Assembly (NCBI GenBank): GCA_949299515.1
Contig: CASGAP010000012.1
Coordinates: 1-64,000 of the forward strand
Reading direction: 5' to 3'
DNA: 64,000 bases
From: an uncultured Desulfovibrionaceae bacterium
Lineage (GTDB): Bacteria > Desulfobacterota > Desulfovibrionia > Desulfovibrionales > Desulfovibrionaceae
Positions 1 to 19,614 of this stretch are shown here, piece by piece. Under the pieces are notes generated by a model. It saw nothing but the letters and a program-made list of their open reading frames with translations. It was not told the origin of the DNA and searched no databases. A program made the position numbers and the translations under genes. Position 1 is the first letter of the stretch. Each line of letters opens with the position of its first letter.

Positions 1-156
1 ATGAAAAAGAAAGACTTACAACAAGCTGCCGGAGTGAGTTCTGCACTAATAGCAAAGTTAGGTCGCAATGAAAATGTATCAACAGATTCTTTGGTGAAAA
101 TCTGTTCTGCATTACACTGTGATATTGGCGATATTATGGAAGTCGTAGATCTGTAA
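1..156 (+). CDS. XRE-family transcriptional regulator, C-terminal part (cut by window start)
   Basis: The visible 51 codons end in TAA and read as the end of a small Cro/C1-type helix-turn-helix protein: recognition-helix region around AAGVSSALIAKLGRNENV, then STDSLVKICSALHCDIGDIMEV, a common ending of short XRE regulators. The ATG at position 1 is probably internal, since the first helix of the fold would lie before the window. It is on the same strand as the phosphorothioation operon and ends 77 bp before dptF, so it is a plausible regulator of that operon. No dndB, the usual repressor of dnd operons, is seen here. The family is clear from the sequence; the regulatory target is inference. 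Confidence 0.75.
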   Translation: MKKKDLQQAAGVSSALIAKLGRNENVSTDSLVKICSALHCDIGDIMEVVDL

Positions 157-233
157 TATATGCATCTCTTTAGATGATGTGGGCTGCGGTATCTAATTAA
201 AAAACTGTTTCTTTGGGGAGGCAGGGGGCAAAT

Positions 234-1961
234 ATGAGTTGTGAATTTATCTCTGAATTGAGAAGACTTAGCAAACTTTCAGCCGAAGCGGTGCAAAATC
301 TTGACCACTTTGATCCGCTAAAAAAATATATGCATATTACCCGTCATACTGAAATTGATTTTAAACAACTGCTGCTGAAAATTGCAGAAGTTAATCATAA
401 ACAGCTCGTTTTGGTGTGTGGCAGTACAGGAGATGGAAAATCTCATCTTCTGTCCTATCTTAAATATAGCGATCAGGATCAAATTCTGGATTCGTACACA
501 ATTATCAACGATGCAACAGAAAGCGATGCACCAAACCAGACGGCTATTGAAACTTTAGCTGAGAGAATCGCAGCATTTCGTGATGATCGTTTGAACGATG
601 GTGGTCGTGAAAAGGTAGTGCTTGCGATCAATCTCGGTATGCTGAATAATTTTATTGATTCTGAACAGGGTAAATATTTCGGCAAACTGAAACAATATGT
701 TTTAAACAACAATATTTTTAGTGTTGCCCAGCCGTTACCGTTCAATAAGGATGAGGTTTTCCACCATATTGACTTTTCAAATTATCAACTGTATACATTG
801 ACAGCTAATGGTGCGAGATCTGATTATTTGACCGAATTATTTGAAAAAGTTTTTGGCAATAACACGTGCAATCCTTTTTACAACACATATATAAACCAGG
901 GATCAACTTGCCCTCATCACACGCAGTGCCCAGTTCGACACAACTTTGAGTTCCTGATGAAAGAAGACGTGAGAAAGCTTTTGATTCAGCGCATCATTGA
1001 AGTGTGCATTAAAGATAAGCTTGTTATTACTTCAAGAGATATTTTGAACTTTATTTTTGATGCAGTGGTTTCCCCAGATTTTGATGAGAAAAAACTTTGG
1101 AATCTTCTTAGCAACCCTGCCAAGTTTTTAGAAACATACATTTCTTACACGACGCCAATGTTGATCTTTGAAAATAGAGGAACGTCAAGTTTAATTGACT
1201 GCATGACAGAAAATGCAGCAACCAGTGATAATATCGAAAAACGTGATTGTGATGTACTTGATTTTTACGCCGCAGACGATATTACCCCTATCGTTTTGTC
1301 GGAGCTGAACGGTTCAGAGTATTCAGATATTTTGCATAGTATTGGTCTTTCAGCTATTGATAACGGCAGAGATCCCCTCAAAAAATATGTTTATAAATTT
1401 CTGCGGAATTATAAAAAGTTGACAGACAGTCAAGAGCTAAAAGCTGATCGACTATATCTGTCTTTTGTCCAAGACTTATACCATGCTTATGCTGGAAATA
1501 TTAAGCATTTGAAAAATCTTTATAGCTCTGTTAAGCATAGTATCTATTCGTGGAATGGTACTTATGGAACCGATTTGATTTGCATAGATGATTCCAGCGA
1601 TGATTACAGCATTTTAGAGCAGCTAAATATTAGGTATGATGTGGCCCAAGGAAGCGGCGACGATGAAGTATTGCAATTTGCACCTGTGATTATAGTACGT
1701 TTTAGCAATGAAACTAAAACTGAGCAGGTTTCTTTTTCGATTGACTATAGCCTCTATAGAGTGATTATGGCAATGAAGGATGGTTACTGTCCTACATCTC
1801 AAGATCGGAATGTACACGCTGACTTTTCCAGTGGAATTATGGCATTGTCTGAATTTGGCACAAAGAAATCGAGAGTTTATATCGTCTCAAAGAGAAAAAC
1901 AAGCAATATGAAATTCCTGCTTGAAGAAAGCGACTTTGGGTATAGTTTTAAGGAGGTGTAA
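234..1961 (+). CDS. dptF: DNA phosphorothioation-dependent restriction protein DptF
   Basis: A 575-residue predicted ATPase of the DptF (DndF) family, one of three proteins (DptF, DptG, DptH) that restrict DNA lacking phosphorothioate modification. A P-loop, GSTGDGKS, lies near residue 65, followed by HLLSYL and, about 35 residues on, by NDATES and PNQTAIETL, as I recall for the family. I chose the ATG at 234 because a purine-rich GGGGAGG lies just upstream; an in-frame TTG at 213 would put the start before that site. The gene opens a six-gene same-strand operon and its end abuts dptG. The role is established for the family; nothing here tests activity. Confidence 0.92.
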   Translation: MSCEFISELRRLSKLSAEAVQNLDHFDPLKKYMHITRHTEIDFKQLLLKIAEVNHKQLVLVCGSTGDGKSHLLSYLKYSDQDQILDSYTIINDATESDAPNQTAIETLAERIAAFRDDRLNDGGREKVVLAINLGMLNNFIDSEQGKYFGKLKQYVLNNNIFSVAQPLPFNKDEVFHHIDFSNYQLYTLTANGARSDYLTELFEKVFGNNTCNPFYNTYINQGSTCPHHTQCPVRHNFEFLMKEDVRKLLIQRIIEVCIKDKLVITSRDILNFIFDAVVSPDFDEKKLWNLLSNPAKFLETYISYTTPMLIFENRGTSSLIDCMTENAATSDNIEKRDCDVLDFYAADDITPIVLSELNGSEYSDILHSIGLSAIDNGRDPLKKYVYKFLRNYKKLTDSQELKADRLYLSFVQDLYHAYAGNIKHLKNLYSSVKHSIYSWNGTYGTDLICIDDSSDDYSILEQLNIRYDVAQGSGDDEVLQFAPVIIVRFSNETKTEQVSFSIDYSLYRVIMAMKDGYCPTSQDRNVHADFSSGIMALSEFGTKKSRVYIVSKRKTSNMKFLLEESDFGYSFKEV

Positions 1962-1965
1962 TTCT

Positions 1966-3360
1966 GTGTTTATATTAGATCCAGAAATGATGAAAAAGAC
2001 ATTTCTTATGGGTGAAAACGGCACAAATTTTACACACAAGTCTGCACAACACATTAAACTATTCCCATTTACAGCTAATAACACGGCTACTATTATTACA
2101 TCGTTTTCTGCTGTAATTGGCGAATGGCTTCGCCTTGCTTGTAATCAGAACAAAGTACCGGAATCTATGGAGGCAACTTTAAGCAAACTCGCAGATTCAA
2201 TGGATGATATTGGAGCCTACGAAAAAGAACAATTATTACAGATAGCTCGGAGCATCTATTGGGATGATGACGAGAAGCATTCTCTTAGACCCAAAAGCAT
2301 TACGGCTATGTGCTATATTCCCTGCGATGATCAGACTGCTCTGAAGACGGCGCAGTATCTTTATAGTGTATTGGCCGATAATGAAAACCTAAGCAACGTT
2401 GTAAATCAAGCAGCAGAGCACGCTATCAAGGAAGTCAATGTTTTGGAAAAAGCCGTATTTGAAGCTCTTCAAGCAAAAATTGAGCCGCCAGCTCCAATTG
2501 ACCCTTACTATATTGTACATCTTGCTCCTCAAAAGATTTTTATGAAAGATCTGAAATTTATCCTTAAAAATACAGCAAGGACGAAAGAATACCTTGTGGA
2601 TTTGCTGGAGTTTTATCATTTTTTCTATACAAGTCAAACTTGTTTGGCGTTATCAAGATTTGAACATGGTGATAGGTACGAAATAGTTCCGCTTTATTTT
2701 AGTCTGGATTGGGAACGGACAAACAAAGCAAGAGAATGCTATAGATCGGGTTGGCAGCAGCTTCTGCCCGCAATCAAGCAGCAGTTTTATCATGCAGTTA
2801 CTTTGGAGATTCTAAATCAGAATCCGACAGGTGAGCAGTTCGATTATATCGCATTAAGAGACTATGTTCAGAAAACAGGTATGGAAGAAGAGGTGGCGGC
2901 TCAGATTCGCAGTGTCTGCGACTTGTATCGAAATGCTATTTCGGACTGCAGTGAGTTAAATGATCTTCAGAAAAATGAGCAATTAGGAACTGTTTTTTCT
3001 GAAGTTAACTATTTATACGAAAGTGTTCGAACTCAATTTAGAAATACAGGACGTGGTAGAGTCAGTGATGGCTATGTAAAGCATTTTGAAACATTTTGCC
3101 ACGATCGATTTCTGAAATCACGAGGTGCCAGTGGATTGATGCTGAATATCACGGAAGAATTTTTAATCTTCCTGACGAAACTTGCTATTCATGATGAAGA
3201 AAAATTGAGTTTGAATGAAGTGTTTCGCCAGTTTGAGTTAAGAGGCGTTTTTCTGGATCAACCATCTAAAGACGAAGTTGTCCAATTTTATACCAAGCTG
3301 AATTTGATAGAAAAGAAGAGCGATAGTGGGGATGCGCAATATGTACGAAGAATTCTTTAA
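1966..3360 (+). CDS. dptG: DNA phosphorothioation-dependent restriction protein DptG
   Basis: A 464-residue protein assigned to DptG (DndG), the middle component of the DptFGH restriction machinery. It has no nucleotide-binding motif that I can see, and its family has no well-defined biochemical role. The assignment rests on its position between dptF and dptH and on a fitting length. The start is GTG at 1966, six bases after a strong AAGGAGGTG inside the end of dptF; an upstream TTG at 1921 has no such site. Its 3' end overlaps the start of dptH, suggesting translational coupling. Confidence 0.85.
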   Translation: MFILDPEMMKKTFLMGENGTNFTHKSAQHIKLFPFTANNTATIITSFSAVIGEWLRLACNQNKVPESMEATLSKLADSMDDIGAYEKEQLLQIARSIYWDDDEKHSLRPKSITAMCYIPCDDQTALKTAQYLYSVLADNENLSNVVNQAAEHAIKEVNVLEKAVFEALQAKIEPPAPIDPYYIVHLAPQKIFMKDLKFILKNTARTKEYLVDLLEFYHFFYTSQTCLALSRFEHGDRYEIVPLYFSLDWERTNKARECYRSGWQQLLPAIKQQFYHAVTLEILNQNPTGEQFDYIALRDYVQKTGMEEEVAAQIRSVCDLYRNAISDCSELNDLQKNEQLGTVFSEVNYLYESVRTQFRNTGRGRVSDGYVKHFETFCHDRFLKSRGASGLMLNITEEFLIFLTKLAIHDEEKLSLNEVFRQFELRGVFLDQPSKDEVVQFYTKLNLIEKKSDSGDAQYVRRIL

Positions 3361-6300
3361 TTACATAGCAACACGCATTATCAGCTATTTTGAGCAGGAA
3401 TGCGATAATTTACATGACGGTGACCGGTTTTGCTTCAAGCTTGATAATGGGGAGTTGGTAGAACAGGTAAATGATGCATTATATGATATTACGCTTAAAA
3501 AAGATATTCAGGGCAAATTTTCTTATCAAGAAAAATATCATACATTTACTGTAAGACTTACAAATAAAGAGATTATTATTGCTGCACAGGTCAATGGAAT
3601 GACAGATGATTTCTTTGCTACGTTGCGAAATCTTCCCTTGTCTATTAATAAAAATCCCATTTTGATGATTACTTGTGCACCGATAGATACAATTTCTAGT
3701 GCTACTCGTGATCTTTCAGCTAAAGGAATGCCTTTTTGTGCGGATGAACTGCTCAAGACCATTGAACAGAATATAAAAGAATCTCATTTACCTGCACCTG
3801 ACTATGTATTATTGATGCATGAATTAAAACGAAAAAAAATCGATCGTTTTGTGGATCGAAAATCTTTATTTGAGTATAAGAGTTTGATAACATCTGTATG
3901 TACAGGAAGAGTAAGTGAGGATAGTTGGATCGATTTTCGTTTGCTTCCGGATGCAAATGGACTAGCTTTGAAACCTGATCCCAAAAAGCAGGAACAACAA
4001 ATCGATGAAAATCATTATGATTTTGAATTGATCGATAAAATTTTTAAATTTGGCAATATACGTGATGGACTTGATAGTATTTTTGATAATAGTTTTATCA
4101 GTGAGTTGGAAAATAAAAAGCGTCAAGGAATTAACTGGTTTGAGGATCTTACCTACGCAGATGTAATGCGTTCAAAGGCTAAAAAGGAAAAAAAACAGAA
4201 TACACCTCTTATAATCGATAATGAGACTATTGTTGCTTATTGTGGAAGCCTGATAGAGTATGAATTTCAGCAAGATCAGAAGCTTTTTATTCGAGATGGT
4301 GGTACCACTAAAGTAAAACAACGTGAGAAGCATATCCTGATTTATAATCCTGAAAAGAAGGAAATAGTCACAATTGTAGTTCCTTTCAATGTTGCGGTTC
4401 GTAAAGACTTAATTATGGTAACAGACCCTAGTATAGCGACAAATTTGGGGGAGTCTAAAGAATTGCAGTTACAGATTAAAGCAGATGGCTGTGTATTTAC
4501 TAATGTAGATATATGTGATCCCAGTAGTAAAACGGAAGTATTTCACCTTAAAATCTGTATTATAGACCTGAATCCTTCTTATTTGGAAAATCTTCAGACG
4601 TGCTATAAAATTGAAGGAAGTGGGAAAAAACGCCGCATTATTGCAGAGGGTATCAAAGAATGTCTAGTTATTAATCCGAGGGCATTAAACCAGGTTAGTG
4701 CAGTTGTAGCAGGACAGGAGATTTATTCTTGTAATTTTGATACAGCATTGACATTGATCTTAGATGAAAATAGTGTTTCTCCGGATAATGGTAAAGTTTT
4801 TTTTACTCTTTTCTGTGGATCTATTCAGCTCCCCATGGGCATTTCTGATGATACAGTAAAGTCATCCAAATTGACGGGTGTAAAAGCATTTAAGCAAAAA
4901 AATGAGCGACAACGTGGGTTTGAATATAGAAGCGGAAAAATCATTATGGGTACCACTCCCTATTATGCAGTTGGTGGCTTTGAAGAAAATCTAAAATGTG
5001 AATCTTTTATTGTTGAAAATCAAGCTTTATATGTAGTAAAAGATCGTAATGGTGAATACAATTCTCAGGAAATTGAAATTCCTGAGGAAGTAAGAGATGC
5101 ATATATAAACTTTCTTTCCATTTTTAAAAATTGCAGGCAATTACCTAGTCTGGCTTATTATGATGAAGGTTTGTGTAAAGCGGCTGAAGATTATATTATA
5201 GCTTATCAGAGTTTTTTGCGCAATGTCAAAGAGGGGGACATTTTAAGTCTAGAACACAATAATACTCTCAAATTAGGAATAGTGTATGATTTATCACGAA
5301 ATACTATTGCATTTTCGCCTGTTCATCCTTTGAATGTTATGTATCAGCTTCATATTCGTCAAGAAGTGGGGCTTGGTAATGCTCGTGATGATGTTATAAA
5401 TCGTCTGACATCTGCAAATCTTCTTCCTTATATTAAGGGTGATCAACAGACAATTTACGAAATTGTTGAGCAGGATGAATCTCCAGAATGGAGATATTAT
5501 ACCGTTATTGATTGGGACCGATATAATGAAATTCGCGATTTTGTGCCTAAGTTAGTTGCTGAAAAAATTGAGGAGTATTATGCTCATTTTAGGTTTTTGT
5601 TCAAAGATATTGGCGAGCACCGTATGATTTTGAGTCTACATAATTTGGGTGATTGCAGAGAAATCTTTTTAGGCATAATTCGATATTTTAAGCGACAAAT
5701 TGCTAATAACTGTATACCTGATGAAATCTTGAATTTTGAAGTCAATATTTACAGCGACAAAGATAATATATCATATTATACTGATTTCTCTGTTTTGTCA
5801 AATTTGAAGTGTACAAAAGAATATCTTTGCAATATCCACGGAAAATATGAGCACAATTCTGACTTGTCAGCTATGCTCGTCAGCAAAATACAATATTATA
5901 TTCACAAGGAAACAGATGATTCTTATCGATATTCTCACATTGCATTTTATGAAATGTTATCCAGTGATAAATGTGGAGATAGTCAGATTTCACGACTGAC
6001 AACTGGTACGTCACTGAATGGAATTATTTCTGGTGTGCCATCGGTCTTAGATGAGGGCTGGTATAAAACTGGGTTCGGAACTAAATACGCTCCAAAGACT
6101 CCTCTGAATGATTTTGCTGCACTATTGAATTCACTTTTTCGTGTTGCCTATTCAAGTAGCACCTATATTTCGGATCATTGTATCACAACTGAAGTACATA
6201 AAAAATCTAGCATTCAGCTTAATAAGATTTATTCTGCCGCCAATTGGGTAGTATTTGTTGATCCTAAAATAGATTTAAGCTTTTTCAATCAGGATAAACA

Positions 6301-8638
6301 ATCTAAAGATTTGTTGATTATTCATTATGGCGATCAGAATTCCTCTGCAAGTGGTTATAATGCTATTACAGTAACGCGCAAAGCTGAGCAATATGAGCGC
6401 ATTATTACTCAAGAGTTGGCAAAGAAAAACGTTAAAGCTGATTCAACTGTAGCAAAACGTATTATTGATTTCTTTAATGCAGTTAATGGTCGTTGGTTGC
6501 TTCGATTGATCTCTTCCAAGAGAGCGCTTGATAGTACGTTTAGTAGAGAGAAAATGAGTATTATTTCTGCTGTTAAATTTGCAATGGCGTACTATTCTCA
6601 CGATAATATCGTTTGGGTGCCGGTGTCTCTTGAAGAGTTACTTAGAGTATCTGGAAATACAGGTCTTTCTCAAAATAATGGGTTACTTTCAGCAAAAAAT
6701 TTGTCTTTTGATCACGGTGCTAGCTGTGATGATTTGCTATTGATTGGTATTGAAAAATCTGAGCAGGGAATTTATGTTCACCTTCATCCTGTTGAAATTA
6801 AAATTGGGCAGAATGATGCAGGGGTTATCGAGAAAGCTAAGAGACAGATAATCAATACCCATAAGGGGTTGCTTCATGCGCTATGGCCAGAAGAAGAGCG
6901 CTATACTATTGAACGGAAAGTTGTTAGAAACTTTGTTATGCAGCTTGCAATTCTGAGTTGTGAAAAGATGAAGCTATATGATATTTATCCAGAGGAAACA
7001 TGGCAGCTTGTCCTTGATGAATGCCGGGAAGATTTGTTGAATGAAAACTATGAAATTTCTGAAGCTGTAAATGAATACATCGGTATTGGAACCATTATTT
7101 CCTTTAAGCAAAGTGAAAGCCTTATTTCTGGTGTAGTTGATTCTGAAAATAATATTGCTATTCTTCAACTACCTGAGCATGAGGGCTACGAGTATTTGGT
7201 AAAAACTGTTGCTGAAGTTGCTTGTGAGATAGAATTGTCTAAATTTCTTCCTCCGAAACTTTCAAGGTTTTATACACTAAATCATACTGAAGCCGTAAAA
7301 GAATATGAGCAGCAAAAAGAAGCTTATAAGGAAGCAATGAGAGAGATTCAAGGAGAATGCCGGGATAATAAAACAGAATTTCAAGAGAAAGAAACCGATA
7401 AAGGTTCTGTTAATTGTTTAGAATACATGACTTTAGCTGCTCAAGAGCTTCTTTATGAGAAAGCGGATGATGATCGGGAAATCAGTGTTTTATTTGGACA
7501 GGATCAAAATACTGGCATGCCCGTATTTTGGCATCCTGGAAATACTGATGAAGTATTTCATACGAATACAGGTATCATCGGAACAATGGGTACTGGAAAA
7601 ACGCAATTTACTCAATCATTAGTTGTTCAGTTATATAGAGAAAGAGTAAATAATGTAGAAAGCCCTGACATTGGTATTTTAATTTTTGATTATAAGGGTG
7701 ATTATAATGAGAGTAAAGAAAACTTTGTGAAGGCCACCAATGCAAAGGTTCTAAAACCATATCACCTTCCTTACAATCCGCTTGCTCTTACGCAGCCCCG
7801 AGTGTTTAAGCCTCTCTTACCCATCCATGTAGCAAACACATTTAATGATACTCTTTCTCGTGTTTATCACTTAGGCCCAAAGCAAAGTAGCACTTTGCTG
7901 AATTGCATCAAGAGTGCATATGCGTTTAGGGGAATCATTCCTAATGATTCGAAAACTTGGACTTTGCCTGCTCCAACATTCCAGGATGTTTATTCCTTTT
8001 ATATGGAGGATGATGATATTAAGAAAGGCGATTCTTTGGAGGCGGCACTTCGTACATTAGCAGATTTTGAGGTGTTTGAGGCTGACAGCCGCAAAACAGC
8101 ATCTCTCTTCGATCTTTTAACGGGGGTTGTTGTAATTGATATTTCTGGTTATGACACAGATTTGCAAAACTTAATTATTGCTATCACACTAGATTTGTTT
8201 TATGCACAAATGCAGGCCAGAGGATCTAGTAAACTCTCAGGTAAACACAGACAGCTTACAAAAATGATTCTGGTGGATGAAGCAGATAATTTTCTTCATG
8301 AGGGATTTCCTTCGTTAAAAAAGATTCTAAAAGAGGGGCGTGAATTTGGTGTAGGAACAATTTTATCTACGCAATTTTTGAAACACTTCGGAAGTGGCGA
8401 TGATGATTTCTCCAAATATATTTTGACTTGGGTTGTTCATAATGTTGCAGACTTAAAAAACACGGACATACGATTTGTTTTTAATACAGAGGCTAATAGT
8501 GCAGAAGAAACAAAATTGTTTGGCGATGTGAAGAAACTGCAAAAGCATTATAGTATTGTCAAAATGGGTAATCGCCAAAAACCTATTTATATCAAAGATA
8601 AAGCATTCTGGGAGCTCTTACTTGAATTACAGGCTTAG
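3341..8638 (+). CDS. dptH: DNA phosphorothioation-dependent restriction protein DptH (HerA/FtsK-like ATPase)
   Basis: A protein of about 1,765 residues, the expected size for DptH (DndH), the large motor-like subunit of the phosphorothioation-dependent restriction system. The C-terminal third is a HerA/FtsK-type ATPase: Walker A GTMGTGKT near residue 1,413 and Walker B MILVDEADNF near residue 1,642, followed by a GREFGVGTILSTQ segment typical of HerA-like ATPases. The first 1,300 residues show no domain I can name. I placed the start at ATG 3341, nine bases after GGGG, but ATG 3332 and GTG 3326 are possible; all overlap dptG. dndC follows 23 bp after the stop. Confidence 0.9.
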   Translation: MYEEFFNYIATRIISYFEQECDNLHDGDRFCFKLDNGELVEQVNDALYDITLKKDIQGKFSYQEKYHTFTVRLTNKEIIIAAQVNGMTDDFFATLRNLPLSINKNPILMITCAPIDTISSATRDLSAKGMPFCADELLKTIEQNIKESHLPAPDYVLLMHELKRKKIDRFVDRKSLFEYKSLITSVCTGRVSEDSWIDFRLLPDANGLALKPDPKKQEQQIDENHYDFELIDKIFKFGNIRDGLDSIFDNSFISELENKKRQGINWFEDLTYADVMRSKAKKEKKQNTPLIIDNETIVAYCGSLIEYEFQQDQKLFIRDGGTTKVKQREKHILIYNPEKKEIVTIVVPFNVAVRKDLIMVTDPSIATNLGESKELQLQIKADGCVFTNVDICDPSSKTEVFHLKICIIDLNPSYLENLQTCYKIEGSGKKRRIIAEGIKECLVINPRALNQVSAVVAGQEIYSCNFDTALTLILDENSVSPDNGKVFFTLFCGSIQLPMGISDDTVKSSKLTGVKAFKQKNERQRGFEYRSGKIIMGTTPYYAVGGFEENLKCESFIVENQALYVVKDRNGEYNSQEIEIPEEVRDAYINFLSIFKNCRQLPSLAYYDEGLCKAAEDYIIAYQSFLRNVKEGDILSLEHNNTLKLGIVYDLSRNTIAFSPVHPLNVMYQLHIRQEVGLGNARDDVINRLTSANLLPYIKGDQQTIYEIVEQDESPEWRYYTVIDWDRYNEIRDFVPKLVAEKIEEYYAHFRFLFKDIGEHRMILSLHNLGDCREIFLGIIRYFKRQIANNCIPDEILNFEVNIYSDKDNISYYTDFSVLSNLKCTKEYLCNIHGKYEHNSDLSAMLVSKIQYYIHKETDDSYRYSHIAFYEMLSSDKCGDSQISRLTTGTSLNGIISGVPSVLDEGWYKTGFGTKYAPKTPLNDFAALLNSLFRVAYSSSTYISDHCITTEVHKKSSIQLNKIYSAANWVVFVDPKIDLSFFNQDKQSKDLLIIHYGDQNSSASGYNAITVTRKAEQYERIITQELAKKNVKADSTVAKRIIDFFNAVNGRWLLRLISSKRALDSTFSREKMSIISAVKFAMAYYSHDNIVWVPVSLEELLRVSGNTGLSQNNGLLSAKNLSFDHGASCDDLLLIGIEKSEQGIYVHLHPVEIKIGQNDAGVIEKAKRQIINTHKGLLHALWPEEERYTIERKVVRNFVMQLAILSCEKMKLYDIYPEETWQLVLDECREDLLNENYEISEAVNEYIGIGTIISFKQSESLISGVVDSENNIAILQLPEHEGYEYLVKTVAEVACEIELSKFLPPKLSRFYTLNHTEAVKEYEQQKEAYKEAMREIQGECRDNKTEFQEKETDKGSVNCLEYMTLAAQELLYEKADDDREISVLFGQDQNTGMPVFWHPGNTDEVFHTNTGIIGTMGTGKTQFTQSLVVQLYRERVNNVESPDIGILIFDYKGDYNESKENFVKATNAKVLKPYHLPYNPLALTQPRVFKPLLPIHVANTFNDTLSRVYHLGPKQSSTLLNCIKSAYAFRGIIPNDSKTWTLPAPTFQDVYSFYMEDDDIKKGDSLEAALRTLADFEVFEADSRKTASLFDLLTGVVVIDISGYDTDLQNLIIAITLDLFYAQMQARGSSKLSGKHRQLTKMILVDEADNFLHEGFPSLKKILKEGREFGVGTILSTQFLKHFGSGDDDFSKYILTWVVHNVADLKNTDIRFVFNTEANSAEETKLFGDVKKLQKHYSIVKMGNRQKPIYIKDKAFWELLLELQA

Positions 8639-8661
8639 AATGACCAGTAAGGATGAACAAG

Positions 8662-10047
8662 ATGAACGAAGAAGCACAAAAGCAGTTCAAAGCAATTATT
8701 GAACAAATGGCTCTTGTTTATAAGCATGATTCTCGTCCATGGATGATTGGTTATAGCGGGGGTAAGGATTCGACACTCCTTTGTCAATTAATCTTTGAAA
8801 TGCTTGAATCGCTTGCTCCAGAGGAACGTAAAAAGAAAGTATATATCGTAACATCGGATACAATGGTTGAAAACCCTGTGGTAAGGCGATATATACATAG
8901 CATGAGTAACGCAATCAATGTTGCAAGCATCAAAAAACAATTGAATATAGAGTCCCATATTATCTATCCGGAAGTCAAAAATAGATTTTGGAGTTTAGTG
9001 ATAGGGTTGGGGTATCCAACACCAGAAGCTCCGGGTTTTCGGTGGTGTACGGATCGATTGAAGATTCTTCCTTCTAATGCTTTTACCTACAATGTAATCC
9101 GAAAAGACGGAGAAATTGTAATTTTGTTAGGTGTTCGCAAAGCTGAAAGTTCAACCAGATCAAAGAGTATTACGTCAAGAGAAATCGAAGGAAAAATTTT
9201 AACCCCTCATGACTCTATTCCGAAAGCATATATATATAGCCCCTTGTCTGAAATCGAAAATAAGGATGTATGGGAATATCTTTTGAAAAATGATGGACAA
9301 AGTGCTTGGGGGACGGATAATCGATCTCTCTTTTCCCTCTATCAGGGAGAGGAAATGGGGGAAGAGCAAAGCGTAGTAGGTGAGGTAAACAAAGATAAAA
9401 TTGCAATTACTGGCAATTCTAGATTTGGTTGCTGGTGTTGTACTATGGTCAAGGAAGATAAATCTCTGAAGAATTTTATTGATCACGGGTCTACAGAACT
9501 GATTCCCCTGCGTGAGTATCGTAATTGGCTTGTTGAATTAAGAAGGACTCCTGAAGCACGAGATTATCGACGGAGAAATGGTGCGGTATATCTTATGAAA
9601 AATGGAGAATTGGGGCGAGGTCCTTTTACGTTAAAAACCCGTAAGGAAATGCTTCGCCGACTTCTTGTTCTGCAGAAAAGTTCAGGATTTGAACTGATTT
9701 CCGAAGAAGAACTTAAGTTTATCGATAAAGTATGGGAACAGGAAGGGGATTTGACTTGTAGAGCCGTTGTCGATATCTACTTTGAAGTTATGAGAGAAAG
9801 GCTACCGTGGGATCAATATAAAAAGGCCAAATATGACCATGAGACTTTGGAGACAATTCATGGTTTATGTGCGAAACATGACGTTCCTTTTGACCTGATG
9901 TCTCGACTAATGTCAGTAGTAGATAATAGCAAATTGTACACTCGTTCAAGTGAAACTGCCAAGAAAGTTGAAAAAGTCTTAAATCAAGGATGGCTTCATT
10001 TTGATCGCATAAGAGAGGAATTAGAGAATGATATTACAGAGGATTGA
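8662..10047 (+). CDS. dndC: DNA phosphorothioation protein DndC (PAPS reductase-like, iron-sulfur)
   Basis: About 461 residues, of the PAPS reductase/ATP pyrophosphatase family. The PP-loop motif SGGKDS lies near residue 32. Cysteines at RWCTDRLKI (near 128) and in the FGCWCC cluster (near 255) fit the [4Fe-4S] cluster reported for DndC. With DndD and DndE it replaces a non-bridging backbone oxygen with sulfur, using sulfur supplied by a cysteine desulfurase (DndA or IscS). ATG 8662 is preferred because AAGG lies at a usable distance; ATG 8653 sits almost on top of that site. The end overlaps dndD by 20 bp. Confidence 0.95.
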   Translation: MNEEAQKQFKAIIEQMALVYKHDSRPWMIGYSGGKDSTLLCQLIFEMLESLAPEERKKKVYIVTSDTMVENPVVRRYIHSMSNAINVASIKKQLNIESHIIYPEVKNRFWSLVIGLGYPTPEAPGFRWCTDRLKILPSNAFTYNVIRKDGEIVILLGVRKAESSTRSKSITSREIEGKILTPHDSIPKAYIYSPLSEIENKDVWEYLLKNDGQSAWGTDNRSLFSLYQGEEMGEEQSVVGEVNKDKIAITGNSRFGCWCCTMVKEDKSLKNFIDHGSTELIPLREYRNWLVELRRTPEARDYRRRNGAVYLMKNGELGRGPFTLKTRKEMLRRLLVLQKSSGFELISEEELKFIDKVWEQEGDLTCRAVVDIYFEVMRERLPWDQYKKAKYDHETLETIHGLCAKHDVPFDLMSRLMSVVDNSKLYTRSSETAKKVEKVLNQGWLHFDRIREELENDITED

Positions 10048-12172
10048 ATTGAATAATTTCGGCTCTTATAAGGATTCTAACGTCTTTAATTTAAATACTT
10101 CTGATTCGGGTAAGAAAATCGTAATTATTGGAGGCAAAAACGGAGCCGGGAAAACAACTTTATTTGTGGCAGTCGAACTTGCATTATATGGTCATTACTG
10201 TTTTGGTTATAAGAATTCTGGGAAAAGGTACACCAAAAAAATTATGGCCTATATTAATGATCAGGCCAAGATGGATGAGGATGAAAGTGCATATGTTGCT
10301 ATTGAATTCTCTGATAGTACAAATGGAGATTTGGATCAGTATCGTATTATCCGTTCGTGGTCGTGGAAAAAGGGGGAGCCGAAAGAAGATTTCCAAGTGG
10401 TAAAGAATGGCCATTACTTAGTCGCGCAAGATTTAGTCGACTTTCAAATTTTCTTGCTTCACTTAATTCCTCCAGCTCTTTTAAGATTATGCTTTTTTGA
10501 TGGTGAACGAATAGCTGAGTATCTATTGGACGACCAAAAAAATAATGTGAGAGATGCTCTTATGGTTTTAAGTGGTAATGATACTTTTGATATTATGTAT
10601 TCTAATATTAGAAAGGTTTTAACTTCTAGTAATTCTAATGAGGACGGTATAACCAGGGAATATCTCCAGAATAAGTTTAAACTAAAAAGACTAAGGCAAA
10701 CTAAAGATCGTTTAGCAGATGAAATTGCAGAGCTTCAAGCCCAGCAGGATGAGAAAAATGCTGATATTGAACGGCTTAAAAAGGAATATTCAGATCAAGG
10801 CGGTATTTCTTTAGAAGAATGGAAAGCATTAAATACAGAGCTTAAAGAAGAGGAAGAACGTCGAGAACGCATCAATTGGGAGCGAAAAAATACAGCAGCA
10901 GAAATACTTCCATTTATTATTGTTGGGCCGTTGTTGGATCAGGTGCGTCCTCTGATTGCTAAAGAGCATGAATTCAAAACATGGAAAGCAATTTCAGAAT
11001 CTATTCGAACAGATAAATTCAAAAATGCAGTTGTTTCTTCTATAAATAAAGCTGGTGTTCCTGATGCTGATTGGTTGGGGGCCATTCTATACAGTGATAT
11101 TATAAAGTTTTTACTTCCTGTAAATGGATGGGGAGATTTTGTTCCTCTTTTTGGACTTTCAGATGATGATGAAATGAGGGTTCAGGCTGTTTTAAATCGT
11201 GTATCGCAATTTGAAGTAAAAAAAATTGCTGGTTATCGGAAACGCTTAGATAAGTCTCTAAAAACATCTCAGGAAATTAGAGAAAAACTTCAAAGTAGTT
11301 CCGTTGAGAATTATCAAGACTATATGGATGCTGTATCTAAAATTACAAGAGAAATTTATGGTCTTTCCCTACAGTCTCAGAGCAAACAAATAGAGTTAAC
11401 GGTTTGTGAGGAAGAAATTATTACTGTTGAAAAAGAATTAGAAGTAGCATATAAAAAATTAGAAATGGATATTAAACGTCGTTCTGTATCAGCTGTTTCC
11501 AGTAAGGTATTATTGTTACTGGAAGATTTGCAAGATATAATATTTGATAGACTGATTCGAGAGGTTAGGGAAGATACATTAAAAGAATTTAATCGTTTGA
11601 TTCATAAGAGGAAATTTATTGATGACATTCAGATCGATAACGAGTTTCGAGTACATTTGTTGCGAAAGCAGGTTGTGGAAAAAAAAGATCTGATTAAAAT
11701 CTGTCGTCAATCTGGTATTGCTGGTATTCAAAGAAGTTTGCGTAAATATGCATTTTCTCAGTTAAGTGAATTGATCGGAAATCCTGATGAAGGAGATTTC
11801 GGCAACGAATTGGAATCGTGTCATCTTAGTGAATTTGAGCTTATGGTGGAAATTGATAAAGATACTTTGTCTAAGGGGGAAACCCAAGTATTTGTTATGT
11901 CACTTTATTGGGCGATGATGCAACAGTGCAAGTGTGAACTTCCCTTTATTATTGATACTCCATTTGCTCGTATTGATACTGATCATAGATCTAATATAGT
12001 TGAGCATTTTTTTAAACGTCTTCCTGGTCAGCTTTTTGTTCTGTCCACTAATGAAGAAATCAGTTCGAAGCATATGTTGGCGTTGCATGATCAGACTTCT
12101 AATATTTTCTTGTTAGAATATGGTGAAGATAAATGTACATATATCATGAATAATCAGTATTTTGAGGTATAA
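10028..12172 (+). CDS. dndD: DNA sulfur modification protein DndD (SMC/Rad50-like ATPase)
   Basis: A 714-residue ABC/SMC-type ATPase. The N-terminal half-site begins MILQRIELNNFGSY, with Walker A GGKNGAGKTT near residue 37. Charged coiled-coil segments lie at about 220-260 and 395-490. The C-terminal half-site has the signature LSKGETQVF near residue 615 and Walker B LPFIIDTPFARID near 640. DndD is the ATPase of the DndCDE modification complex and is thought to supply energy or DNA nicking. It overlaps dndC by 20 bp, and dndE begins 2 bp after its stop, so translation is probably coupled. Confidence 0.95.
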   Translation: MILQRIELNNFGSYKDSNVFNLNTSDSGKKIVIIGGKNGAGKTTLFVAVELALYGHYCFGYKNSGKRYTKKIMAYINDQAKMDEDESAYVAIEFSDSTNGDLDQYRIIRSWSWKKGEPKEDFQVVKNGHYLVAQDLVDFQIFLLHLIPPALLRLCFFDGERIAEYLLDDQKNNVRDALMVLSGNDTFDIMYSNIRKVLTSSNSNEDGITREYLQNKFKLKRLRQTKDRLADEIAELQAQQDEKNADIERLKKEYSDQGGISLEEWKALNTELKEEEERRERINWERKNTAAEILPFIIVGPLLDQVRPLIAKEHEFKTWKAISESIRTDKFKNAVVSSINKAGVPDADWLGAILYSDIIKFLLPVNGWGDFVPLFGLSDDDEMRVQAVLNRVSQFEVKKIAGYRKRLDKSLKTSQEIREKLQSSSVENYQDYMDAVSKITREIYGLSLQSQSKQIELTVCEEEIITVEKELEVAYKKLEMDIKRRSVSAVSSKVLLLLEDLQDIIFDRLIREVREDTLKEFNRLIHKRKFIDDIQIDNEFRVHLLRKQVVEKKDLIKICRQSGIAGIQRSLRKYAFSQLSELIGNPDEGDFGNELESCHLSEFELMVEIDKDTLSKGETQVFVMSLYWAMMQQCKCELPFIIDTPFARIDTDHRSNIVEHFFKRLPGQLFVLSTNEEISSKHMLALHDQTSNIFLLEYGEDKCTYIMNNQYFEV

Positions 12173-12174
12173 TT

Positions 12175-12552
12175 GTGGCATTTAAATTGAGAACATCAAA
12201 AAAAACTGAGGAAATTCTGATTCAAATTGAACGGAGCACCAGCATTCCATATGCAACACTTATTAAACTTTCATTAGCGTTGTCATTGCGTAGGGGGCCG
12301 TTACAGGAAGAGGATTTTAAGACGAATAATTTGGGGCGAGAACTGAATCGACAGACGATTACAGGTGATGCAGATGCATTGTATAAGTGCTTGTTTGAAG
12401 TGTGTGCCCATCGACACATGTCTGATGAAGAATATTTCCCGGGAGCCGTAAAAGCACATTTGGATCGTGGTGCAGTTCTTCTGCAAAATGAATTGCGGTA
12501 CAGCAGCAATGACTTTCTTCAGTATCTTTCTGAACTTGATAAGAGCATTTAA
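12175..12552 (+). CDS. dndE: DNA sulfur modification protein DndE
   Basis: A 125-residue protein beginning MAFKLRTSKKTEEIL, then a conserved TLIKLSLALSLRRG segment, matching DndE, the small DNA-binding subunit of the phosphorothioation complex that favours nicked DNA in characterised homologues. It starts with GTG two bases after dndD; the AGG in TGAGGTAT at the end of dndD is its likely ribosome binding site. It is the last gene of the operon, and a hairpin follows about 70 bp downstream. Family assignment is firm through context plus sequence. Confidence 0.92.
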   Translation: MAFKLRTSKKTEEILIQIERSTSIPYATLIKLSLALSLRRGPLQEEDFKTNNLGRELNRQTITGDADALYKCLFEVCAHRHMSDEEYFPGAVKAHLDRGAVLLQNELRYSSNDFLQYLSELDKSI

Positions 12553-12620
12553 CTAGGATATTTTATGAATATCAAAGGAATACGTATTCATAAAAATCTA
12601 TAACTTATTTTTTAAAATAA

Positions 12621-12661
12621 AAAACTCCCGCCAATTCCTGTTATGAATTAGGCGGGAGTTT
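12621..12661. terminator. Bidirectional hairpin between dndE and higA
   Basis: A GC-rich stem with arms AAACTCCCGCC and GGCGGGAGTTT encloses an AATTC/GAATT extension. The T-run is long on the minus strand, so it should end higBA transcription well; on the plus strand it has only a short T stretch and may end the dnd operon less efficiently. Confidence 0.8.
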
Positions 12662-12761
12662 CATATACGCTCGAAAACCGTTAGATCACAGTTGATAGGT
12701 GATTATTTCTTTCTCGTTGTAAGTCATGGGTTTTTCAAGTTTACTATTGAATATATAAAAG

Positions 12762-13043
12762 TTACGCATATTTTGATATGTTTTCAAAGTCTTTGGAGTT
12801 GTTGTGCAGTTCTTTGGAAATGTCGTACTCCATTTGCAGGGTCAGCCAGAATTGGCTTGACGTGCCGAAGAATTTGGCTAGACGGATTGCCGTGTTGGCC
12901 GTGATTGCCCGTTTGCCTTTTATGATTTCTGAAATTCTTGAGGGCGTTAAATTTAAATGTTTGGACAGAAAGTGCGGTGTTATGCCCATGGGGATAAGAA
13001 ATTCTTCGTTTAAAATTTCTCCGGGGTGTGTTTTTATTCTCAT
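12762..13043 (-). CDS. higA: HigA-family antitoxin (XRE helix-turn-helix)
   Basis: 93 residues. It opens MRIKTHPGEILNEEFL, the HigA/VapI signature, followed by an XRE helix-turn-helix (LNLTPSRISEIIKGKRAIT) and the FFGTSSQFWLTLQ segment typical of HigA. It neutralises the HigB toxin and represses its own promoter in characterised systems. It begins 8 bp after the higB stop, behind AGGAG. The toxin-first order is the usual HigBA arrangement. The module lies between the dnd operon and the integrase, where it may stabilise the island; that role is inference. Confidence 0.93.
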   Translation of the reverse strand: MRIKTHPGEILNEEFLIPMGITPHFLSKHLNLTPSRISEIIKGKRAITANTAIRLAKFFGTSSQFWLTLQMEYDISKELHNNSKDFENISKYA

Positions 13044-13051
13044 ATAAACTC

Positions 13052-13330
13052 CTAGTGATAGTCCACGATTTCAACTTCATAGGCTGAACCGTTTTCCCAA
13101 ATAAAGCATATTCTGTATCTGTCGTTTATTCTTATGCTGTATTGTCCCGCCCTGTCATTGATGAGCTGTTCTAGGTGATTGGCAGGTGGTATGCGCAAAT
13201 CATTGATGTCATAGGCGGCGTTTAGCATATCAAGTTTTCGTAAGGCTGTTTTCTTGATCTGGTCAAATTTTTTGCAGTTTCCTGTTATATACAGTTGTTC
13301 CGTATGCTTGCAGCTGAAACTTTTTATCAT
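13052..13330 (-). CDS. higB: HigB-family mRNA interferase toxin (RelE/ParE superfamily)
   Basis: A 92-residue RelE/ParE-fold toxin. The pattern ALRKLDMLNAA, then LRIPPANHLEQL, then GQYSIRINDRYRICF is diagnostic of HigB, a ribosome-dependent mRNA endonuclease in studied cases. It is first in the two-gene operon, with higA immediately downstream. A perfect 25-bp palindrome lies about 20 bp before its start, the expected place for autoregulation by HigA. Intact, with no frameshift seen. Confidence 0.93.
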   Translation of the reverse strand: MIKSFSCKHTEQLYITGNCKKFDQIKKTALRKLDMLNAAYDINDLRIPPANHLEQLINDRAGQYSIRINDRYRICFIWENGSAYEVEIVDYH

Positions 13331-13350
13331 GTCAATCCCGTTGGTTGTCC

Positions 13351-13387
13351 ATGTTTACTGTTTAACAGTAAACATAGTTTTTGTCAA
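13351..13387 (-). promoter_or_regulatory. higBA promoter and operator palindrome
   Basis: A perfect dyad with arms ATGTTTACTGTT and AACAGTAAACAT around one central base covers 13351-13375, directly upstream of higB. On the minus strand a TTGACA at 13387-13382 is followed, 17 bases on, by a weak TAAACA, so the palindrome would cover the -10 region. This is the layout of an autorepressed toxin-antitoxin promoter. The palindrome is seen directly; the binding protein (HigA) is inferred. Confidence 0.7.
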
Positions 13388-13420
13388 ATTTATAGGCTTT
13401 TTTCGTAATTTCGTATTGGT

Positions 13421-14608
13421 TTATAACTGCAGGTTGTTGAGCACAAAGGCGGATTTTCTGAGACCTTCGGGGGAGTGGTGGCTGTACCGCAGGGTCATTT
13501 TGATTGAGGCATGGCCGAGCAGTTCTTTTACGGAAAAGATGTCTACTTTTTTCTGTACCAGCCATGAAGCGTAGGTATGCCGCAGGGTATGGAAAACAAC
13601 CTTGTCCCTTTTGTCCTGCACGTTCTGATTGAAAAGCCTGTCTGCAATCCGGTCAAAGGTATGGGAAACACTGGTAATTCTTCCGCCGATAATATTGGTA
13701 AAAACCAGTCCTTCCGCCCCGTCACCGTTGTCTATGCTTTCCAGCCGTTTTTTGCTGAACAGGGCGTGAATGCTGTCCAACATGTAGGCAACACGTTTTT
13801 TTCTGGCCTTGGGGTCTTTGATAAGAATAAGCCCGCTTTCAAAATCTATGCAGTTCCAATCAAGATTGACGATTTCGCCGAAACGCATTCCCGTTGACAG
13901 CGAGATGAGGGCAATTTCATACAGCTGTTCGGAATGTTCACGCAGTTCGCCAAGCAGGAGTTTGGCTTCCTTTTCCGTAAGATAGCGGCAGCGGTTGTTG
14001 TCCGTTTTGGCAAGTTTTATCTGTCTTGTGGGGCAGTCTTTGTAAACCAGTTCATCACGGCGTGCCAATGTCCACATTTGGGAAATGATGGACAGGGTAT
14101 ATTTAATGGAAGAAGGCGTCCTGTTGTTTCTTTCCATTTGGATTTTTATTTCTTCAATGTTGCGTGCTTTCAGCTCAATAAAGGGGACATGCCCGATAAT
14201 GGGCTTCAGCCATTTTTTGTATAAATACCGTTCCGATTCAATGGATTTTGGGGCTTTGTGCGATTGGGAAAGAATGTAGTATTCTTCAAAAAACTCGCTG
14301 AACGTAATTTTCTTTTTCTTTTCCTCTGCTTCTTCCTGTTCTTTTTTCAGGCGTTCGCTGCGGCGTATCTTTTTTTGCTCTGTTTTTGACGCGGCGCCTG
14401 TGCCTCGTAGGCTTGCGTCTTTGTATTTTTCAATTTCAAGGGCGGCTTTTGCTTCTGTCCAGCCTTGGCTTGCATAGCCTAAAATATATTCATAGCGTTT
14501 GTCGCCGATCTGATAGCGGATACCGAACAGCACATCCCAGCGTGAGCCGTTTTTCTTGGTTTTGTCCGTGAACATTCGTACGCCTTTATATTTTGTGAGG
14601 CTTCCCAT
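13421..14608 (-). CDS. Tyrosine-type site-specific integrase (possible -1 frameshift at its 5' end)
   Basis: A 395-residue phage/island-type tyrosine recombinase. The catalytic box I arginine is in STGMRFGEIV (near 242), HTLRHTYASW gives box II histidine and arginine (near 344), and the nucleophile tyrosine is in MTLRYSHHS (near 375). An N-terminal SAM-like core-binding domain covers about 100-190. The ATG at 14608 has no good ribosome binding site. A strong AAAGGAG precedes an ATG at 14640 in another frame, which would enter the integrase frame through a -1 shift at A AAA AAC. The gene faces away from the tRNA-Ala fragment 440 bp to its right, as expected for the integrase of this island. 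Confidence 0.9.
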   Translation of the reverse strand: MGSLTKYKGVRMFTDKTKKNGSRWDVLFGIRYQIGDKRYEYILGYASQGWTEAKAALEIEKYKDASLRGTGAASKTEQKKIRRSERLKKEQEEAEEKKKKITFSEFFEEYYILSQSHKAPKSIESERYLYKKWLKPIIGHVPFIELKARNIEEIKIQMERNNRTPSSIKYTLSIISQMWTLARRDELVYKDCPTRQIKLAKTDNNRCRYLTEKEAKLLLGELREHSEQLYEIALISLSTGMRFGEIVNLDWNCIDFESGLILIKDPKARKKRVAYMLDSIHALFSKKRLESIDNGDGAEGLVFTNIIGGRITSVSHTFDRIADRLFNQNVQDKRDKVVFHTLRHTYASWLVQKKVDIFSVKELLGHASIKMTLRYSHHSPEGLRKSAFVLNNLQL

Positions 14609-14619
14609 TTTGTGCGTCT

Positions 14620-14626
14620 GTTTTTT
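14620..14626 (-). other. In-phase A AAA AAC slippery heptamer in the integrase leader
   Basis: On the minus strand the reading frame opened by the ATG at 14640 runs CCA AAA AAC. Slipping back one base after AAC gives CAG ACG CAC AAA and then joins the integrase frame at its ATG (14608). The unshifted frame ends after 53 codons at 14479. The motif has the classic X XXY YYZ form in the correct phase. A one-base deletion in an A-run, real or from sequencing, would look the same. Confidence 0.5.
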
Positions 14627-14643
14627 GGATTTGTTTTCATTTT

Positions 14644-15047
14644 AATCTCCTTTTTGGAACTTTGCAGGGAGAATACCATTAAAATAATTTAAAATATATA
14701 ATTATTTTAATATATTATAAATGATATAAAGTGAGGAAAAGTGATGTAAAAGGATATAAAACGAAACGTGAAAACGGAAAAATCCGAAAATGTCAAGGTG
14801 CCCGAATTTTCTGTGAGCATTGGAGTAATTTTTTCTCATTTGAATCTGACCTCTTAGCAAAAAATGCCGAGTTTTTGAAATGCCCTTTCAAATAATCAAA
14901 ATAAAAATCCACCGTTTTTCCACCATTTTTAAGGTGAAATTAAGTGATTTTAAGTGATGTTAAAAAATCACTGACTAATTACTTAAATTTGGCATATCAA
15001 TAAGTTAATTATACAAACTCAAACGGTTGAATGATTTCTTTTGACCC
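14644..15047. other. AT-rich attachment-site flank with repeated AAGTGA motifs (no gene)
   Basis: About 400 bp without a credible gene between the integrase leader and the tRNA-Ala fragment. The motif AAGTGATGTNAAA occurs at 14739-14751 and 14952-14964, with related AAGTGAGGAAAA and AAGTGATTTTAA copies just beside each. Repeats of this kind next to a tyrosine integrase are candidates for arm-type integrase binding sites. The repeats are seen; the function is inference. Confidence 0.5.
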
Positions 15048-15092
15048 ATGGCATTCAAGAGGCCAGGAGTTCAATTCTCCTCAGCTCCACCA
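15048..15092 (+). repeat. Island attachment site: 3' half of tRNA-Ala(GGC)
   Basis: The 45 bp read as the 3' half of a tRNA: anticodon loop ATGGCAT (anticodon GGC), 3' anticodon stem TCAAG, variable loop AGGCC, T-arm AGGAG-TTCAATT-CTCCT, acceptor CAGCTCC and ACCA. The T in CAGCTCC would form the G3-U70 pair that marks tRNA-Ala. No 5' half is present upstream: there is no acceptor, no D-arm and no matching CTTGA stem directly before the loop. This is the expected scar of a tyrosine integrase that recombines in the anticodon loop. The intact tRNA gene should lie at the other island end, left of the window. Confidence 0.85.
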
Positions 15093-15100
15093 GTATTTCC

Positions 15101-15132
15101 AAAGGCTTATAAAGTTCGCTTTATAAGCCTTT
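15101..15132 (+). terminator. Terminator of the original tRNA-Ala gene
   Basis: Perfect 14-bp stem, arms AAAGGCTTATAAAG and CTTTATAAGCCTTT around TTCG, followed by T residues. It lies 8 bp after the tRNA fragment, so it was displaced with it when the island integrated. Confidence 0.85.
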
Positions 15133-15800
15133 TTTCGTGTCCAAAAATTGAGTTTAAAAGTCGGTTAAGTGAAAGAGAGCTAGTCAGAGAGTGAAATTTT
15201 ATTTTGCCGGCAGCGTATCGGGCAGATACAAGGTAGAGCTGCCAGTTTGTGTTATATTTTCTCTATATACAATTTGCTGTTTATGTAAATTTTGTTTGTA
15301 GAAGCGCAGAAAAGGCTGGTAGAAATTTATGAGGCATGGCAAGGTAGATTGGCATAGATAACCGCCATATGTTTTTACAGAATATCTTTTTTTGTCTTCA
15401 GTGTGCCGTAATGCTGAATTCTGCTGCTATTTTAAGCTGCCGCAGGGAAAATTTTTGTTAATATGTTTCCGGTAACTGCCTATAAATATATATCTTATTG
15501 TTTCTGTAGTGAAAATCGTCTATTCTGCCGATTTTGTCAGTTTTTTGCTAGAATTTTTTTGAATTTGCAATGCTGGCTGACAATTTTTACTTTATTAAAA
15601 TAAATAATTATAAATAGTTATATTATAATTTTAATTTTAAGAGTAAACGGATTCAGAAAATTTTTAAATCGACAGTCAATTTTTAGAAAAATTAAGTTGC
15701 ATAATTTTAAAATTCATGCAATATTTTATAAAATATTTCATAGATAAATTATTAAAAAATTTTTAAAATTATTTTTAATTATTTTTCATAAGGAGGCATT
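15133..15800. other. Long gene-free leader region
   Basis: About 670 bp with no convincing reading frame. The right half is extremely AT-rich. A near-perfect dyad with arms TTGCAT and ATGCAA spans 15697-15721, about 80 bp before the binding-protein gene, and is a candidate operator. Nothing else recognisable was found in the left half. Confidence 0.5.
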
Positions 15801-17255: not shown

Positions 17256-17331
<76 letters not shown>

Positions 17332-17479
17332 AACGTGTGTTCTTTATATAGAAGTTATTTGACTTTGTCAAATATTATTTTAATTTTTTTATTATTTTTT
17401 TAAGTTTATCTTACACAAAATATACATACCGCAAGGAAAAGCGGTAATAACAAAATTTTTGAGTAAATTAAACAAAAAA

Positions 17480-17495
17480 GTGAGTAAGAACTCAC
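17480..17495 (-). terminator. Terminator of the Thr-Pro-Thr tRNA operon
   Basis: On the minus strand GTGAGT-TCTT-ACTCAC is followed by six T, just downstream of the last tRNA-Thr. Confidence 0.75.
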
Positions 17496-17503
17496 ATATT
17501 GAA

Positions 17504-17579
17504 TGGAGCCCATGAGCAGGATTGAACTGCTGACCTCATCCTTACCAAGGATGCACTCTACCTACTGAGCTACATGGGC
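17504..17579 (-). tRNA. tRNA-Thr (GGT), copy 1
   Basis: 76 nt with encoded CCA. Acceptor GCCCATG/CATGGGC and anticodon loop TTGGTAA (anticodon GGT). Identical to the copy at 17682-17757. Confidence 0.97.
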
Positions 17580-17601
17580 AGTAACTATTGCGTTGATTTT
17601 A

Positions 17602-17678: not shown

Positions 17679-17681
17679 ACG

Positions 17682-19538: not shown

Positions 19539-19614
<76 letters not shown>

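Follow-up and report, generated by a model that had tools for sequence, protein, structure and literature searches.

How a complete set of restriction and modification genes comes to stand in a single row, with neither dndA nor dndB in it, is the question raised by the beginning of contig CASGAP010000012.1 (C12) of an uncultured Desulfovibrionaceae bacterium. The stretch analysed (the window) spans the initial 64 kb of this contig, starting at contig base 1 with no readable DNA leftward; the source assembly comprises 1.76 Mb in 16 contigs, is 91% complete, and has a contamination given as 0.07%. Six genes, all with open reading frames (ORFs) on the plus strand, follow one another in the order dptF-dptG-dptH-dndC-dndD-dndE (Table 1). 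They probably constitute a Dnd/Dpt-type defence locus for phosphorothioate (PT) restriction and modification, sitting on a mobilisable island next to a tRNA-Ala gene. The locus appears to have lost dndB and its operator and to have undergone a cassette exchange, and its DndC keeps three of five conserved cysteines. The genes and their order, the absence of dndB and of the operator, the conflict between trees, the missing cysteines, the ends of the island, and a second dptFGH set can be seen in the sequences. PT chemistry, a single transcript, control by an XRE-type protein, the state of the DndC cluster, and defence itself are what we infer from these genes.

As proposed, DndC, DndD, and DndE would mark the cell's own DNA with sulfur, placed in the backbone at one short motif, and DptF, DptG, and DptH would attack DNA without the mark. 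The nearest relatives have both halves in one row, where the marking half retains dndB, the gene for the repressor, behind what looks like its own promoter with an operator specific to the clade. In the window, dndCDE would be carried on the dptFGH transcript after loss of these elements from the junction, with the XRE protein from the gene 5′ of dptF regulating the whole set; the marking cassette would have been swapped for one with another predicted motif and the restriction cassette kept, leaving a DndC in which just three of the proposed [4Fe-4S] cysteine ligands remain.

The family assignments are well beyond what chance would give (PADLOC: DndF 8e-136, DndG 8e-145, DndH 2250 bits, DndC 6e-131, DndD 6.5e-107, DndE 5.5e-10). 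DptF, DptG, DndC, and DndD also exceed their NCBIfam cut-offs; DptH (557 of 620.65 bits) and DndE (49.2 of 71.85) fall below. All three families of the DndCDE modification module are encoded together (DndE under the NCBIfam and over the Pfam cut-off), and the three genes of the DptFGH restriction module are adjacent and intact, DptH having Walker A at residue 1419 and Walker B at 1647. Neighbouring genes overlap or are separated by no more than ~25 nt, a value that depends on the dptG start chosen. An earlier sequence-only reading had described these genes in this order on one strand, with joints of at most 23 bp and without dndA or dndB in the 12.5 kb, and its account of genes and layout stands; it missed a second dptFGH set, the XRE gene, the island, the module swap, and the loss of DndC cysteines, and its contrast with characterised hosts, in many of which the sets are separate or divergent, and its proposal of IscS as sulfur supplier fare less well, as described below.

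Gene order, dndB, and the dptH-dndC junction

For comparison, 88 loci were annotated: the window, a second dptFGH set (copy A) on contig C3 of the same assembly, seven database records, and 79 loci from one scan of genome contigs. The scan loci come from the best 80 of 151, picked by likeness to the window DptH, and their frequencies are not nature's. In the 65 loci with both dptH and dndC, the restriction and modification genes are convergent in 42, divergent in five, in the order modification-then-restriction in four, and in the order restriction-then-modification on the same strand (R>M) in 14. Apart from the window, this last group comprises 12 loci of Clostridia, mostly from the gut, or of faecal scaffolds, and a single Paenibacillus locus; the layout, which the earlier reading had set against the separate or divergent sets of many characterised hosts, is thus found in 13 other loci.

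All 13 of these others have dndB between dptH and dndC, where the window has 14 nt. Across the survey dndB is absent from 12 of 64 informative loci, including eight from Bacteroidota, two from Peptostreptococcaceae, and one from Sulfurospirillum. Its absence is not new; among the compared loci, the window is the only one to lack it within the R>M layout. Nor is absence of dndA or dndB unusual elsewhere: among taxa with the modification module DndB is reported in 51% and DndA in 32%, loss of either being common and the two modules often decoupled (PMC10853773), and the spread of dnd-type systems is described as sporadic (PMC8569181). Within the window's own 91%-complete assembly there is no match to the DndB family PF14072 (E ≤ 1), for which the DndB proteins of the nearest loci score 353–357 bits with the same model, and no dndA adjoins the six-gene set.

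Closely related dnd sets of Paenibacillus (L054, L051, L052) have three different orientations of the modification and restriction genes; with three in one genus, layout appears to change easily. A faecal record labelled "Bacteriophage sp." (L038; MT836308.1, 9690–21247) carries dptFGH-dndB-dndC-dndD, but the phage label is doubtful; scans of viral contigs found no relatives.

The region lost from the window has a recognisable sequence in its relatives. Within 150 nt 5′ of dndB, 10 of the 13 other R>M loci contain ACTTAAGT, mostly as two copies inverted around TATACTTAAGTA. L055 joins them once its dndB start is shifted to its ATG, for a total of 11 of 13, or 11 of the 12 gut-type relatives; L057 has half of the sequence before dndB, and the Paenibacillus locus (L054) a different palindrome. 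Eighteen copies were seen where 0.03 were expected, and none precedes dndB in the 39 dndB loci outside the R>M group. A TATACT −10 box overlaps with the repeat, which in several loci comes after TTGACA. In light of work on DndB in Salmonella (PMC4507180), the region looks like an autoregulated dndB promoter, with ACTTAAGT as its predicted operator.

The ten-base form of this sequence has no match in the 64-kb window even with one mismatch allowed. At the window junction dndB, operator, and promoter have been lost together, so dndCDE should depend on read-through from dptFGH. This loss and the 14-nt junction left make a single transcript likelier for the window than for its relatives, and co-transcription, as already suggested from the sequence, is the simplest reading; the inverted repeat after dndE may end the transcript.

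The modification cassette and its DndC

In phylogenetic trees, DptG and DptH of the window lie inside a gut-Clostridia R>M clade, with DptH nearest L101 and L045. DndC and DndD are placed with two Lachnospiraceae loci (L046 and L071), beside the Peptostreptococcaceae-type loci L049, L050, and L053, and in the DndE tree the window and all five of these group together at 96. Approximately unbiased (AU) tests reject both the joining of DndC of the window, L046, and L071 to the other members of the R>M clade (p 1.6e-4) and that of DptH of the window and copy A to L046/L071 (p 1.8e-48). By this phylogenetic evidence, the modification genes are from another lineage than the restriction genes, a cassette exchange. 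In L046 and L071 it would have involved only dndCDE, since their DndB remains in the R>M clade.

The exchanged DndC also differs at its specificity loop, which corresponds to residues 140–142 of the E. coli B7A protein and for which three classes have been described (PMC12193691). Elsewhere in the R>M clade this loop is mostly R-x-K/R, of the GGCC class in that scheme; five loops of the clade were missed by the search pattern, of which four rows were read by eye as FPRKKLRWC and that of L048 was left out. DndC of the window, L046, and L071 has instead an EAPG loop, which fits none of the three classes (PMC12193691). Given this difference between the window and the R>M clade, the predicted specificity would have changed while the restriction half was kept.

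Two cysteines are missing as well. Five DndC columns are Cys in at least 61 of 64 proteins; at two of these, where 61 of 64 have Cys, the window has E238 (codon 9364–9366) and T253 (9409–9411), which correspond in the E. coli protein (L043) to Cys262 and Cys273, and L046 and L071 likewise have Glu and Thr. Those kept, C132, C260, and C263, are the equivalents of Cys146, Cys280, and Cys283; the PP-loop SGGKDS is intact, and 78 of the 85 columns conserved at ≥90% are retained. A [4Fe-4S] cluster has been proposed to be held by Cys146, 273, 280, and 283, with Cys273 also the proposed sulfur-transfer residue (PMC12193691). The window DndC holds three of these four, Cys273 being replaced by Thr; because the four-ligand assignment is itself a prediction, this DndC is classed here as a variant rather than a standard member. 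The same paper attributes a ligand set of 146, 280, and 283 to an earlier study (Pu et al., 2020).

Between L046 and L071, dndC has a dN/dS of 0.038, the lowest among seven genes; such strong purifying selection argues that the gene is not decaying in these two loci. A further faecal DndC (L143; 46% identity) retains all five cysteines. The predicted model of the window DndC has a pLDDT of 84.5 overall and below 50 at residues 233–256, the loop where the two cysteines are lost, and was therefore not used to judge geometry. Its top Foldseek matches are TtuA and APS reductase; a PDB sequence search with DndC gave no match at E ≤ 0.01.

The source of sulfur is less clear than the sequence-only reading supposed, IscS as probable supplier being unconfirmed. 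No cysteine desulfurase was recognised among the eight class-V or related aminotransferases of the 91%-complete assembly (a ninth, weak match was left out). The IscS profile scores at most 22 bits there; four of five genus-mates score 390–398 bits, and the fifth 76 bits on a contig-edge fragment. With ~9% of the genome missing, either loss of the desulfurase or an assembly gap could account for this; the NifU that neighbours the IscS of a genus-mate also has no match in the assembly and so does not mark where such a gap would lie.

Certain tRNA thiolases (NcsA, TtuA, and TtcA) have a three-cysteine [4Fe-4S] cluster with an open iron site that accepts inorganic sulfide (PMC10067955). It is conceivable, though on balance doubtful, that DndC of the window, L046, and L071 forms a class with a three-cysteine cluster and open iron site of this sort, which could use free sulfide rather than persulfide from DndA or IscS, would recognise a PT motif belonging to none of the three known classes, and would belong to a cassette that can be swapped in behind unrelated DptFGH. 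If so, direct use of sulfide would suit sulfide-rich gut anaerobes, and restriction would need no cognate motif.

The XRE gene, the second dptFGH set, and the island

The window begins with the end of a gene for a Cro/C1-type HTH_26 protein, which heads the operon. Similar XRE genes abut or overlap dptF in L045, L047, L063, L071, and L106, with a degenerate copy in L055; L064 and L101 have another small ORF in this place, and inspection by eye shows no more than a remnant in L046. None was recognised before dptF in L038, L048, or L054, or before that of copy A. In length and place the gene resembles those for the controller proteins of type II restriction-modification systems, and its product is the best candidate for a regulator of the whole set. 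A general role for XRE proteins as substitutes for DndB was considered and rejected: in 11 other survey loci without dndB and with sequence 5′ of dndC, no helix-turn-helix (HTH) gene abuts dndC. Other arrangements were seen in passing. A faecal "Bacteriophage sp." scaffold (L143; MT838064.1, 1367–5598) is alone in having an XRE gene that runs into the start of dndC; dndD and dndE come next, and dndB is missing. In addition, two Bacteroidota loci (L060, 6580–6810; L068, 6158–6421) have a different XRE-type gene directly 5′ of dptF.

Copy A (C3:128617–137033) is 89% identical to the window over 8.47 kb, with dN/dS between copies of 0.16 for dptF, 0.08 for dptG, and 0.10 for dptH. In a relative-rate comparison, DptH of the window has more changes than that of copy A with L101 or L045 as outgroup (41:19 and 35:11), but no clear excess with L106, L048, and L063 (12:8). 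A DptG match is found in 26 of 29 other carrier genomes, exactly one in each of the 26. Around the source genome DptG is rare, with no match in any other genome among 98 relatives or in 394 others of the phylum (samples partly overlapping). The dnd and dpt genes have 36–37% G+C; the integrase part and its surroundings have 43–45%.

Beyond dndE the window encodes a probable integrase, followed by an imperfect copy of the 3′ part of a tRNA-Ala gene (Table 1). The intact tRNA-Ala(GGC) is on C3 (120341–120416), followed by genes for a DUF3987 protein, MobC/NikA, a relaxase, and a resolvase. Integrase, tRNA 3′-end att repeat, and relaxase, the marks of an integrative and mobilisable element (IME), are all present; the middle is unassembled. 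In a complete genus-mate (G003), the C3 genes left of the tRNA and the C12 gene right of the island flank the same tRNA-Ala. As the two flanks join at one tRNA gene there, C3 and C12 most likely bound a single island that holds both dptFGH sets. Insertion at a tmRNA gene, suggested by an Rfam match at 15025–15092, was rejected: the full tmRNA gene on C6 differs in sequence, and the partner is the tRNA-Ala on C3. Following the same tRNA-Ala, G003 (C1:472000–491000, L034) carries ~8 kb of unshared DNA, after which the two gene orders agree again, which suggests that this tRNA gene is an island hot spot.

Alternative explanations, known systems, and feature coordinates

The second dptFGH set might belong to a neighbouring strain, as an allele in a mixed assembly rather than a second copy in one genome, and this deserves only slightly less credence than an even chance. 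C3 ends 12 nt into the dndC of copy A and C12 starts just before dptF, no second dndCDE is present in the assembly, and identity between the copies climbs from ~87% to 95% towards the break, all as expected of a mixture. It is harder to reconcile with the 0.07% contamination, with the unrelated sequences 5′ of the two dptF genes, with the position of the outer C3 and C12 flanks on two sides of one tRNA-Ala in G003, or with the shortness of the final exact match of C3 to the window, 17 nt, which is not an assembler-type overlap.

As to function, sulfur insertion could have been lost: DndC would make no PT, DptFGH would be a stand-alone defence, as has been proposed for DndFGH in general (PMC10853773), and DndCDE would be vestigial or differently used. 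The two missing cysteines are present in 61 of 64 DndC proteins, one of them the proposed ligand and sulfur-transfer residue Cys273 (PMC12193691), and the 91%-complete assembly has yielded no cysteine desulfurase. Such a loss is nevertheless unlikely given the tighter constraint on dndC than on neighbouring genes in L046 and L071 (dN/dS 0.038), the conservation of the remaining columns (78 of 85), PP-loop, and C132, C260, and C263, and the occurrence of the same cysteine loss in three loci of different genomes. Moreover, DndFGH causes DNA damage in PT-deficient Salmonella (PMC9239217), so selection should act against an inactive DndC where DptFGH is intact. A little less improbable, at perhaps one chance in a few, is that this is an ordinary Dnd restriction-modification island in which the loss of dndB and of the cysteines is neutral variation; the frequent absence of DndB and DndA (PMC10853773; 12 of 64 loci here for dndB) and the recurrence of the single-strand order would fit. 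Against it are the conservation of the operator in 11 of 12 gut-type relatives, the invariance of the lost cysteines in the other DndC proteins, and an EAPG loop outside all three classes (PMC12193691).

The proposal of a rearranged PT restriction-modification locus, which is preferred to these, has its own weak points. The window DndC sits in its tree where long branches meet. The island is split over two contigs of a 91%-complete assembly, and dndB, dndA, or a second dndCDE could sit in the gap. The XRE gene is truncated by the contig start and intact only in some relatives, and an operator for its protein is hypothetical. Promoters may also lie inside dptH: 63 promoter-like matches were counted in positions 1–15200 against 51 expected, which makes the scan no more informative than chance.

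Among known systems, the closest to the window are L046 and L071, which share its one-strand order of FGH then CDE, the lack of dndA, the EAPG loop, and the two missing cysteines, with DndC 55% identical; they differ in keeping dndB and operator between dptH and dndC and in having a DptH from another branch of the clade. The window DptFGH belongs with L038, L047, L048, L055, L063, L064, L101, and L106 (Clostridia, mostly gut, and faecal scaffolds), which have FGH then B-C-D-E on one strand, several with an XRE gene before dptF; their DndC, however, comes from a different lineage and has all five cysteines and a loop of the RKK type, for which the GGCC class is predicted, and dndB and the operator are present. 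The IscS-DndBCDE-DndFGH systems of Salmonella enterica and E. coli (L043, L081) share the six core families, but have the restriction genes on the opposite strand, dndB (PMC4507180), and a TRS loop with GAAC/GTTC. The tRNA thiolases TtcA, TtuA, and NcsA share the PP-loop sulfurtransferase fold and the three-cysteine open-site [4Fe-4S] cluster that the variant DndC might have (PMC10067955), but act on tRNA, and at 10–14% identity and a TM-score of ~0.3 the resemblance is one of chemistry and not of membership.

A search of the open-access literature listed no paper on a DndC lacking these cysteines, on the ACTTAAGT operator, on an XRE head gene, or on a same-operon set without dndB of this sort (the search was weak for helix-turn-helix with dptF). 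The locus could serve as a natural test of which cysteines DndC requires for its iron-sulfur cluster; of whether DptFGH reads the motif or merely the presence of sulfur, given the exchanged marking cassette; and of the balance between restriction and marking after loss of dndB and its operator. The comparison also reveals a predicted clade-specific dnd operator in gut bacteria.

Table 1. Features of the window, with positions counted from its first base
Feature	Position	Strand	Basis or remark
XRE-type (Cro/C1, HTH_26) regulator gene	1..156	+	Pfam PF13443 3.4e-14; 5′ end lost at contig start
dptF (DndF), restriction component	234..1961	+	PADLOC, NCBIfam; P-loop GSTGDGKS; longest ORF from TTG 213
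dptG (DndG)	1921..3360	+	PADLOC, NCBIfam; longest ORF from TTG 1921, later start possible
dptH (DndH), 1770 aa, C-terminal HerA/FtsK-type ATPase	3326..8638	+	PADLOC, Pfam DUF87
dptH-dndC junction, 14 nt	8639..8652		site of dndB in 13/13 other R>M loci
dndC variant, C132/C260/C263 kept, EAPG specificity loop (9025–9036)	8653..10047	+	PADLOC, NCBIfam
dndD, SMC/Rad50-like ABC ATPase	10028..12172	+	PADLOC, Pfam, NCBIfam; Walker A
dndE	12175..12552	+	Pfam PF08870 5.2e-18
G+C-rich inverted repeat 3′ of dndE, probable operon terminator	12617..12666
HigA-like antitoxin and HigB-like toxin genes	12762..13330	-	Pfam HTH_3, PF05015
Tyrosine recombinase, probable island integrase	13421..14608	-	Pfam PF00589 9e-29
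27-bp exact repeat of C3:120469–120495 (just inside other island end), perhaps integrase arm site	14903..14929
attR-like 97% copy of tRNA-Ala(GGC) 3′ part and terminator	15048..15147

Farther along the window, on the minus strand at 17256–17757 and 19539–19614, are two tRNA-Phe(GAA) and two tRNA-Thr(GGT) genes with a tRNA-Pro gene between; the anticodons of the two tRNA-Phe genes are identical.

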